From Gammaproteobacteria bacterium (GTDB lineage Bacteria > Pseudomonadota > Gammaproteobacteria > Steroidobacterales > Steroidobacteraceae): a DNA stretch of 64,000 nucleotides. Below, piece by piece: positions 51,758 through 55,888 of the stretch. Location: positions 1-64,000 of the forward strand of contig JABCZO010000022.1 in NCBI GenBank assembly GCA_013289615.1, read 5' to 3'. The position numbers and the translations under genes are program-made. The notes beneath the pieces are model-generated. The model had not been told where the DNA came from. It saw only the letters and a list, made by a program, of their open reading frames with translations, and did no database searches. Within the stretch, counting starts at the first letter, position 1; each line of letters begins with the position of its first letter.

Positions 51758-54700
51758 ATGACCGCAGCAGACGTCTACGATTCCAGTAAAATCAAAGTCT
51801 TAAAGGGACTTGACGCGGTGCGCAAAAGGCCCGGCATGTACATCGGTGATACCGATGACGGCAGCGGTCTGCACCACATGGTTTTCGAGGTGGTCGACAA
51901 CTCCGTGGACGAGTCCCTGGCGGGACATTGCGACCGGGTGGTGGTCACCGTTCACGCCGACGAATCCGTGACGGTCTCGGACAACGGTCGAGGCATTCCG
52001 GTCGACATCCACCCCGAGGAAGGCCGGTCGGCGGCCGAAGTCATCATGACCGTGCTGCACTCGGGGGGTAAGTTCGATGACATCTCGTACAAGGTCTCGG
52101 GCGGCCTGCACGGGGTCGGGGTGTCGGTGGTCAACGCGCTGTCGGACTACCTGCAACTGACCGTGTGCCGCGACGGCTTCATGCATCGCCAGGAATTCCA
52201 CCTCGGCGAGCCGGTGGCGGCGCTGGCCGTGATCGGTCCGACCACTGAGCGCGGCACCACGATCCGCTTCCGGCCCTCCTCGCAGATCTTCACCAACATC
52301 CAGTTCAACTACGACACGCTCGCCAAGCGGCTGCGCGAGCTGTCGTTCCTCAATGCCGGGGTGCGCATCGAGCTGATCGACGAGCGCGAGAACAAGTCCG
52401 ACGTCTTCGCGCACGACGGCGGCCTGCAGGCGTTCGTCAAACACCTGAATCGCTCGCGCACGCCGATCCACGAGAGCGTGTTCTGGTTTCGTACGCAGGA
52501 GGGCAGTGCGACGGTGGAGGTGGCGCTGCAGTGGAACGACTCCTACCAGGAGAGCATGTTCTGCTACACCAACAATATCCCGCAGAAGGACGGCGGCACG
52601 CATTTGTCGGGCTTTCGCGCAGCGCTCACGCGCACGCTGAATGATTACATCGAAAAAGAATCGGTAGCGAAGAAGGAAAAGATCGCCACCACCGGCGACG
52701 ATGCGCGCGAGGGACTGACCGCGATTCTGTCGCTGAAGCTGCCCGATCCGAAGTTTTCTTCGCAGACCAAGGACAAACTGGTCTCCTCCGAAGTCAAAGG
52801 CCTGGTCGAGACCGCGGTGGCGCAGAAGCTCAGTGAGTTCCTGCTCGAGCACCCGCAGGAAGCGCGCGCCATCGTCGCCAAGATTCTCGAGGCGGCGCGC
52901 GCGCGCGAAGCGGCACGCAAGGCGCGCGAGATGACGCGACGCAAAGGCGTGCTCGATATCGCGGGCCTGCCCGGCAAGCTCGCCGATTGCCAGGAGAAGG
53001 ATCCGGCACTGTCGGAAATTTTCATCGTCGAGGGAGATTCGGCCGGCGGCTCTGCCAAGCAGGGCCGCGATCGGCGCACGCAGGCCATCCTGCCGCTGAA
53101 GGGCAAGATCCTGAACGTCGAGAAGGCGCGCTTCGACAAGATGCTGTCGTCGGCCGAAGTCGGCACGCTGATCACCGCGCTCGGCTGCGGCATCGGCCGC
53201 GATGATTTTGACATCGAGAAATTACGCTACCACAGAATTATCATCATGAGCGTCGATGGCGACGAGCATGTTTTCGTCCGCGACCAGCAGCACGGCGTAC
53301 GCATGACGACAGTTGGGCGATTTATCGATGCAGCGCTTGAGGGAATCAAGCCTGACGAGAAGGGCGTCGCGCGTCGTGTACGAGACCAACTCGGCGAAGT
53401 GCTGTGTTTCGGGTTAGAAGACCACCTCGTTCGCTTCCGGCCGATCAAAGGCGTGATTCGACACCCGGTGGAGGAGGTTCTCTACGAGGTCAAGACGGCC
53501 TACGGGCGCTCGATTCGGGTAACAGCCAGCCACAGCGTTTTTGTTCAGGACAACGGAGAGATTCGGCTCAAGCAAGGCAGCGAGTTGCAGGTCGGAGACC
53601 GGTTAGTAGCGCCGAGAACTATCCGCCTGCCCCAGAACGCGCCCGACCGCATCGATCTCCTGCGAGCGCTGCATCAAGTTCCGGAAGCGCGAAATCAGAT
53701 CTGGGTGCGGGGACCAGCTGTGGAGGACTGGTTCAAGACTCGCATCGTTGAGGAATATGCTGACCGACCAGAGTTCTCTGCGCCACGCGTGGAATTTCCT
53801 GCCGAAGTACGAAAGGAACTGGCTTCTTTGCGCCGCGCTAGCGGCGTCACCAACGTCGAGCTATGCCGCAGGATTGGAATACGGCAACCCGTGACTTTCT
53901 ATGCTTGGGAGAGCGGCGTTTCCCGTCCGACGTTGCCCAATTTCCAGTCGTATCTCCAAGTGATTGGTGCCAACGCGGCCGCGGTAATGCAACAGGTGTC
54001 CGTGGGACCGAGTCGACTCGAACGCGTTTGGGAAAATCAATATCGTGGTTCGCCCTGCAATCGGGTGCGAGATTACGTGCGACTGTCCGCGCTGGAGGCG
54101 GAGGATATTGAGTGGTTGGCGGATCGCGGAGATCTGGAGCTGACGCCGGAGCACAACGGAGATCAAGGTATCCGACGTTTCGTATGCGTCGATTCAGAAC
54201 TCATGAAGTTGCTAGGGTTCTATTTGGCCGAGGGATCGTGTTCGGATCGCAACGGCGTGCGCCTGTGCATCGGCAAGAGCAATGTACGGTTCATGGAAGA
54301 GATGGCCGCGGCAATCACCCACGTTTTCGGGGTGCCACCCAAGAGCTACCCCATAAAGCGGGGCTGCGGGGAATTAAAGCTTTTGAATCGCGCTGCGGCC
54401 TTAGCGTGGCAGCACGTCTTTGGCTTTTGCGGCGCCGACTCTCTTAGCAAACGAATCCCCGACCTGGTATTTAATGTCGCTGAACCACTGAAGTTGGCGT
54501 TTCTGCGTGGCTATCTGCTTGGTGATGGCTGCGCGACGGGCGGAAAGGTTGTGTTTAGCACCTCGTCGCGCGACATCGCCAGTGGTGTTTCATATCTGCT
54601 CGCCACTTTTGGAGCTGTCGCGTGCATTCAGGAGATTGATGCCGACAGAGTTGCGCAACGATGCGGCGAGCAGGTTTTCAAGACAACCCATCGTCACTGG

Positions 54701-55888
54701 CAAATCATTCTTTCTGCAAGCGAAGACTTGGCTCGGCTGCGAAGCGTGTGGAGCGACCACTCGGGCGCCAGCACGGTAGAAGATAGGATCGCCGCTGCAG
54801 ACTATCCACGCCGTCGGCGCTTCGATGTGATTGACGGAGATCTCATCGCGTTGCCCATTGTGTCGGTTACTCCCGTCGAAGCTTCAAACGGCAATGTTTA
54901 CGACTTCTCGGTAGAAGGGGATGAGAATTTCATCTGCGGTTTCGGCGGAATCGCAGCGAAAAATACCGATGCGGATGTTGACGGAAGCCACATACGCACG
55001 TTGCTGTTGACCTTCTTTTACCGGCAGATTCCGCTGCTGATCGAGCGCGGGCACATCTACATCGCGCAGCCGCCGCTGTACAAGGTCAAGCGCGGCAAGC
55101 AGGAGATCTACGTCAAGGACGACAACGAACTCAATGCGCTGCTGCTCAACAGTGCGCTCGAGGACGCGGCGCTGCACGTGAGCGCGACTGCCGAGGCGCT
55201 GCGCGGCTCGGCACTGGAGATGCTGGCGCGACGCTACATGGAGGTGCAGGCAATCATTCGCCGCTGGGCGCGTCGCTATGACGAGCGATTGCTGGAGCAG
55301 ATGATCTACATTCCCCAGGTCAAGGCGGGCGATAGCGATAATTCCGACTTCATGCGCAGCTGGGCCGCGGAGCTGGAAGCGCGGCTCAATGCGCGCGGCG
55401 ACGGGCGGCGCAGTTTCCAGCTGCAGCTGCGCGCCGCAACCGACGGTCATCCGCGCATCGTGGTTCGCAAGACCGAGCACGGCCTGGTCACCGAGAAGAT
55501 GCTGCACCGGGAGTTCTTCGAATCGGCCGAGTACCAGCGCATCTCGGAACTTGCGCGTACGCTCGCCGACCTGATCGGCGAGGGCGCCTATGTAACGCGT
55601 GGCAATGAGCGCGAAGACGTCGGCGCCTTCAAGCAGGCGATGACCTGGCTGTTCGACCAGGCGCGCAAGGGCCAGACGATCCAGCGCTACAAGGGCCTGG
55701 GCGAGATGAATCCCGAGCAGCTGTGGGAGACGACCATCAACCCGGCGACGCGCCGCCTGATGCAGGTGCGCATCGAGGATGCGGTCGCATCCGACGAGAT
55801 CTTCACCACGCTGATGGGCGATCAGGTCGAACCGCGGCGCGAGTTCATCGAGAAGAACGCACTGTCAGTGGCGAATCTGGATATCTAA
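51758..55888 (+). CDS. gyrB: DNA gyrase subunit B interrupted by an intein
   Basis: 1376-codon gene giving an 804-aa GyrB after splicing, the usual gammaproteobacterial length. The GHKL ATPase domain ([39 protein letters not shown]), the transducer and the TOPRIM domain ([34 protein letters not shown] after the intein) are all present. The C-terminus ends [21 protein letters not shown] and [11 protein letters not shown] 572-aa intein separates RYHRIIIM from TDADVDGSH, right before the metal-binding DxD of TOPRIM, so unspliced protein cannot act as a topoisomerase. Confidence 0.97.
53249..54964 (+). mobile_element. Intein with LAGLIDADG endonuclease and embedded HTH in GyrB (572 aa)
   Basis: Inserted between M497 and the TDADVDG motif. 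It starts with Ser1 ([17 protein letters not shown]), has block [13 protein letters not shown] with TxxH, two endonuclease helices ([10 protein letters not shown] at intein residue ~320; [11 protein letters not shown] at ~416), block [19 protein letters not shown] and ends AAKN, followed by Thr+1. The penultimate residue is Lys rather than His, unusual but known to be tolerated in some inteins. About residues 188-243 form a cro/C1-like HTH ([20 protein letters not shown], then [13 protein letters not shown]), probably aiding target recognition. Base and codon use (more TTG, TTA and A/T-ending codons) differ from the exteins, indicating recent acquisition. Confidence 0.95.

Follow-up and report, generated by a model that had tools for sequence, protein, structure and literature searches.

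What interrupts the gyrase B gene of a Steroidobacteraceae bacterium (assembly GCA_013289615.1), and is the interruption a working mobile element or a remnant of one? In the window, meaning the whole 64,000-nucleotide stretch of contig JABCZO010000022.1 that was analysed, a single open frame (51758-55888) encodes a GyrB of 1376 amino acids (aa) in which the usual gyrase B domains are matched by Pfam, with the TOPRIM domain split. The interruption, 53249-54964, comprises 572 aa without a stop, runs from SVDGDEH to GGIAAKN immediately before TDADVDG, and sits in frame at the TOPRIM DxD motif as IIIM/S...N/T (slashes mark junctions). The insert is very probably a mobile intein equipped with a LAGLIDADG endonuclease and a helix-turn-helix (HTH) accessory module, because its catalytic residues and predicted fold are intact, its relatives at the same site are patchily distributed and the intein and host trees conflict.

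At the level of splicing, the preliminary description of this DNA had proposed a 572-aa intein dividing TOPRIM between IIIM and TDADVDG, with Ser1, a TxxH block B, a block F, two LAGLIDADG-like helices and an AAKN ending followed by Thr, Lys taking the place of His. All of this is borne out. The translation gives the boundaries and the ending, and the window protein exceeds the cut-offs of Pfam Intein_splicing (52.5 bits against 35.8) and LAGLIDADG_3 (55.8 against 22.5) as well as those of NCBIfam intein_Nterm (32.6 against 24.5) and intein_Cterm (18.1 against 15.6). Comparisons employed 50 distinct full-length inteins including that of the window, 45 of them in alignment A2; L058 and L094-L097, near-identical to others, belong to the 50 and not to A2, loci that were partial or unmatched by the boundary pattern stand outside (L016, L063, L064, L065, L076, L078, L098, L099 and L101), and L024, L025 and L027 are intein-free and hence excluded. 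Ser1, T92, H95, Y551-D552 and N572 are each invariant in 45/45 aligned inteins, and Thr occupies +1 in every relative whose C-junction was read. The window intein thus has the hallmarks of class 1: Ser1, a block B Thr-x-x-His, a C-terminal Asn, Thr+1 and the HINT fold. Its predicted fold matches solved inteins, the nearest solved sequence being PI-PkoII (1.4e-29), followed by TFIIB inteins, and both LAGLIDADG helices carry their presumed catalytic acids, Glu328 and Asp426.

A cro/C1-like HTH had also been claimed, and it is at the family level that this claim stands. HTH_31 is matched by 33 and HTH_3 by 21 of the 45 aligned inteins (E <= 0.01). Among ten members scored individually, L100, from the archaeal side, exceeds both cut-offs (39.8 bits for HTH_3, 38.1 for HTH_31), L010 and L086 exceed the HTH_3 cut-off of 23 (29.5 bits), L007, L042 and L045 score under the cut-off, and L015, L060, L061 and L062 yield no HTH match. 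Searched against the PDB, a profile (A3) of 35 HTH segments finds XRE proteins, among them HigA (2.4e-5), HipB and P22 C2, and five helices are predicted within residues 185-247 with a local confidence (predicted local distance difference test) of 93-95, in agreement with the five-helix make-up of XRE/Cro-C1 domains. The module follows the N-terminal HINT half and precedes the first LAGLIDADG helix, and its presence beside HINT and LAGLIDADG gives the window intein the combination of domains known from the HTH accessory-domain inteins TliVMA and PI-TkoII. It is missing in 5/50 inteins (L015, L060, L061, L062 and L103), which requires five changes on the best tree; in the first four the gap opens around residue 164-168 and closes at 237-272. 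A catalytic acid has been lost in L015, L062, L103, L089 and L090, that is, in three of five HTH-less against two of 40 HTH-bearing inteins (Fisher p 0.0065, uncorrected for kinship), and the HTHs of the two HTH-bearing members that lack an acid, L089 and L090, score lowest among the 40 under a profile that includes both. The splicing residues are unchanged in 45/45. On balance, a role of the HTH in homing and not in splicing is favoured. A kinship-aware test shows no association between a penultimate Lys and HTH presence. As a separate observation, L103 (genome G1362, phylum set of L006) sits on a long, uncertain branch and is strongly diverged; it occupies the same site, but has lost both LAGLIDADG acids and shows an unrelated segment instead of the HTH.

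Another departure from the commonest intein pattern concerns the C-terminal junction. The penultimate residue is His in 39 and Lys in 11 of the 50 inteins, the usual His being absent from the window intein (Lys571), and all seven excluded rows with a visible C-junction (L016, L063, L064, L065, L078, L098 and L099) end in His-Asn. Lys-type members comprise six gammaproteobacterial inteins, L015, from a record titled Herpetosiphonaceae, and L010-L013, of which three are cyanobacterial and one is titled Desulfonema. Four His/Lys changes are needed on the best tree; a single origin within L010-L013 is not rejected (p 0.28), so that at least three changes are required. The Lys codons are AAA/AAG and the His codons CAC/CAT; each change would therefore have taken two base substitutions, through Gln or Asn, if His is the older state, and neither intermediate occurs at this position among the 50 inteins. 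The residue preceding the block F Asn-Phe (F:13), often His, is Glu559 in 45/45, and the Lys-type inteins consequently lack both His residues proposed to aid Asn cyclisation. According to the available passages of PMC4031507, neither assisting His is needed in all inteins, about 5% of functional inteins carry a penultimate residue other than His, and such differences may mark stages in overcoming the loss of His; for this reason, a penultimate Lys is uncommon, not novel.

The distribution of relatives was followed by whole-genome searches (E <= 1e-20), which for the order, the class and the phyla covered an even sample of a larger group. P0001 retrieved 14 loci among the named genomes, 14/14 in gyrB at IIIM/TDADVDG (L016 by its C-junction only). 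Across 15 genomes of the genus, four bear the intein, four show a readable empty site (L024-L027) and seven have no readable junction. The family yielded 30 positives among 217 genomes, 30/30 showing the gyrB C-junction (L063-L065 being partial loci); the order sample 10/296, all from the family of the source; and the class sample 1/369, the source genome only. Farther away, 6/244 genomes were positive in Cyanobacteriota (the phylum of L010), 9/301 in the phylum of L008 (Chloroflexota by record title) and 5/196 in that of L006 (archaeal by title), where four of the five were read at IIIM/TDADVDG and L101 was unmatched by the boundary pattern.

A second intein occurs in the same GyrB at EGDSAGG/C...VHN/S, which we take to be the site of the Synechocystis (Ssp) GyrB intein, in 7/17 loci (L006, L010, L012, L013, L086, L087 and L091; only its C-junction is in view in L087). 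GyrB thus has two intein sites, one per TOPRIM motif (EGDSAGG and TDADVDG); the window intein shares the TOPRIM domain with the Ssp-type allele and differs from it in lying about 65 extein residues downstream. The EGDSAGG stretch of the window GyrB is uninterrupted. In the source genome, where only inteins like the GyrB one were sought, P0001 gave a single extra weak match (E 0.04), in frames without an intein ending. Spread to parE was considered and rejected: the corresponding stretch, ILADADSDG, is intact in 12/12 ParE-like loci of the genus, and Ala at +1 there would prevent an intein from splicing by this chemistry. In the literature, the passages available from PMC4071816 report a gyrB intein allele in six Halobacteria, 19 Bacteria and one other euryarchaeote, and those from PMC9348778 count 61 intein-containing GyrB proteins during the building of an archaeal set, in both cases without giving sites, while a passage of PMC6390638 describes a GyrB mini-intein of 123 aa in Desulfonema ishimotonii. 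The IIIM/TDADVDG insertion site was not found described in the accessible literature, which leaves subscription papers and intein registries mostly uncovered, so it is not claimed to be unreported.

Evidence of movement comes from trees, composition and selection. The six Lys-type gammaproteobacterial inteins belong to four genera (g1, g6, g7 and g18), of which g1, g7 and g18 also hold His-type inteins. Their hosts as one clade are rejected on the N-extein tree (p-AU, approximately unbiased test, 4.7e-7), and the inteins of g1, g18 and g7 as single clades are rejected on the intein tree (3e-74, 6.7e-5 and 7.8e-5, respectively). The clearest conflict is L043, whose GyrB falls with L047 and L052 of g7 (100/99) and whose intein groups with that of the window. 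One extein tree was built without L058, the other without L058, L060, L019, L056 and L057; the C-extein of L060 (genome G119) contains an unknown base beyond which its sequence is unlike its relatives, possibly an assembly fault. The AT-leaning codons remarked upon earlier are confirmed by a G+C content at third codon positions (GC3) of 0.626 in the intein, the exteins having 0.834 and 0.847; the intein value lies under those of all 41 non-overlapping window frames of at least 200 aa (minimum 0.667). Synonymous differences per site (pS) in the intein exceed those of both exteins in 6/6 pairs; synonymous divergence (dS) of the whole intein was computable in three of the six, with 0.96 for L001-L003 against 0.45 and 0.51 in the exteins. 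The ratio of nonsynonymous to synonymous differences (pN/pS) is 0.05-0.21 for the endonuclease and 0-0.32 for the HTH, similar to the splicing parts (12 distinct pairs, some sharing members). A phage or plasmid vehicle was considered and rejected: four phage records matched, all weakly and over less than 80% of the query, plasmids yielded nothing at E 1e-5, and the pattern was not matched in viral contigs. The earlier impression of an active-looking homing element thus finds support in the patchy distribution, the conflicting trees and purifying selection, cleavage itself being a prediction from sequence.

Taken together, the locus probably holds a well-formed, active and horizontally moving LAGLIDADG intein at a second TOPRIM site of gyrB. 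GyrB would be made as a 1376-aa precursor in which Ser1 would start the N-O acyl shift, Thr+1 would take the N-extein and Asn572 would cyclise, with Lys571 either assisting or playing no part, to release an 804-aa gyrase subunit. The freed intein could then cut the junction codons of an intein-free gyrB and be copied in by repair, with the HTH acting as an accessory DNA-binding module that may help the endonuclease to find or choose its site and would be dispensable for splicing. Several observations weigh against this interpretation. The window's own HTH_31 match (20.0 bits, E 8.6e-4, residues 188-243) is below the Pfam cut-off of 27, so that the finding named beforehand as fatal to the HTH claim, no hit above threshold over those residues, is literally what the single sequence gives, and it is the relatives that overturn it. 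L060 and L061 lack the HTH and yet keep both acids, and when kinship is considered, with L058 and L094-L097 assumed acid-intact and not inspected individually, HTH loss and acid loss provide four independent pairs (mean 2.5 concordant, none opposite), which cannot reach significance. The g1 exteins are themselves split over two positions of a poorly resolved tree, and therefore the g1 conflict alone is no proof of transfer; weaker codon bias could explain part of the raised synonymous divergence of the intein; and the raised identity expected of co-conversion does not appear beside the insertion point, where empty-site or His-type hosts give a similar profile.

The missing co-conversion tract would suit an intein that splices, is inherited with gyrB and retains its endonuclease only as a relic, as would the acids lost in L015, L062, L089, L090 and L103. 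Such immobility is quite unlikely for the window intein, in which both acids are kept, the endonuclease has a pN/pS of 0.10 against L003, GC3 lies under that of every long window frame and the intein and host trees disagree. The HTH might alternatively make the free intein or its precursor a transcription or autoregulatory factor, acting for instance on gyrB. This is unlikely: of the five HTH-less inteins, three have lost a catalytic acid as well (not significant with kinship), and the hosts that retain the HTH belong to several phyla and would hardly share a regulatory target.

The junction raises a different alternative, in which Lys571 slows or conditions splicing and the intein regulates gyrase. 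The absence of both assisting His residues (Glu559 in 45/45, penultimate Lys in 11/45) fits this idea, as does the improvement of splicing in some inteins when His is restored (PMC4031507, available passages); the same passages record that His impairs other inteins and that functional inteins with other penultimate residues exist. GyrB is essential, and a single gyrB, beside one ParE-like paralogue, was found in the source genome (E <= 1e-100; assembly 82.93% complete), which makes such a brake very unlikely. Its stronger form, in which Lys-dependent Asn cyclisation arose at least three times and turned the intein into a gyrase control by tying GyrB maturation to a condition such as pH or HTH-bound DNA, is highly improbable. 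A pseudogene or assembly artefact could be imagined in a source assembly of 74 contigs that is 83% complete; its probability is practically negligible, and it was rejected given the open frame, the 88% identical intein at the same gyrB site in another genome (L003/L017) and the purifying selection. The mobile intein with its endonuclease and HTH remains the preferred reading.

Compared with known systems, the closest relative in structure databases, PI-PkoII/PI-TkoII of Thermococcus kodakarensis (PDB 2cw7), resides in a different host protein and ends in His-Asn. It has about 120 residues (149-267) where the GyrB intein has its HTH, with no sequence match between them; its accessory domain has been called HTH-like, and the two inteins therefore probably share the same HTH placement. 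The archaeal TFIIB inteins (5o9i, 5o9j) also differ in host, and 5o9i is titled a mini-intein, without an endonuclease. TliVMA (PDB 7qss/7qsu) combines, like the GyrB intein, HINT, LAGLIDADG and an HTH-type accessory domain, which has been compared with the 434 repressor (PMC8966425, available passages, here and below). In the VMA inteins this domain comes after the endonuclease, in TliVMA ahead of the C-terminal HINT part, whereas in the GyrB intein it precedes the first LAGLIDADG helix. The preliminary description suggested that the HTH could extend target specificity, a possibility for which TliVMA offers an experimental comparison. Without its accessory domain TliVMA bound DNA less well and no longer cut an alternative site, the homing site still being cut; grafted onto another intein, the domain added the alternative site and left apparent affinity unchanged. 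It thus altered the choice of site and lowered the specificity of the enzyme (PMC8966425). A UvrB intein in a Thermoflexus-titled genome (G607, L085:96-3053, + strand) carries an HTH (HTH_31, 2.5e-11) after its LAGLIDADG match, whereas the GyrB intein of that genome has its HTH on the other side of the endonuclease. HTH accessory domains in inteins and non-His penultimate residues are already known, and the element is accordingly less unusual than the preliminary description implied, its features having been read correctly.

Coordinates of the gyrB exteins and of the intein parts in the window
Feature	Position	Strand	Details
GyrB N-extein	51758..53248	+	497 aa, C-terminal ...RYHRIIIM
N-terminal half of HINT splicing domain	53249..53638	+	intein residues 1-130; Ser1, block B T92-x-x-H95
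Accessory region between N-HINT and endonuclease	53639..54181	+	residues 131-311
XRE/Cro-like HTH	53810..53977	+	residues 188-243; model helices 185-198, 202-209, 214-222, 229-239, 243-247
LAGLIDADG homing endonuclease domain	54182..54748	+	residues about 312-500; helices 316-328, 412-426
Codon of first presumed catalytic acid, Glu328	54230..54232	+	
Codon of second presumed catalytic acid, Asp426	54524..54526	+	
C-terminal half of HINT	54749..54964	+	residues 501-572; block F VYDFSV...DENF, end Lys571-Asn572
Penultimate Lys571 (AAA) and terminal Asn572 (AAT)	54959..54964	+	
GyrB C-extein	54965..55888	+	first residue Thr+1 of TDADVDG

Regarding the genomic setting, dnaA (frame 47997-49337), dnaN and recF lie just upstream of gyrB, which is therefore in its usual dnaA-dnaN-recF-gyrB context. 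Just upstream of dnaA on the opposite strand, the translation of frame 47356-47874 (-) reads like a GNAT-type acetyltransferase.

The GyrB intein is ordinary in kind, and its value lies in what its family offers. A second occupied GyrB site is useful to work on gyrase or on splicing. One endonuclease, present at one site both with and without the HTH, offers a direct test of the role of accessory domains in homing, a role called elusive in the available passages of PMC8966425. Likewise, His-Asn and Lys-Asn inteins at a single host site, separated by at least three changes, constitute a natural test of the passage through the loss of the penultimate His, and the family is a fitting test set for that change in terms of the stages that, in the passages of PMC4031507, such differences may mark.
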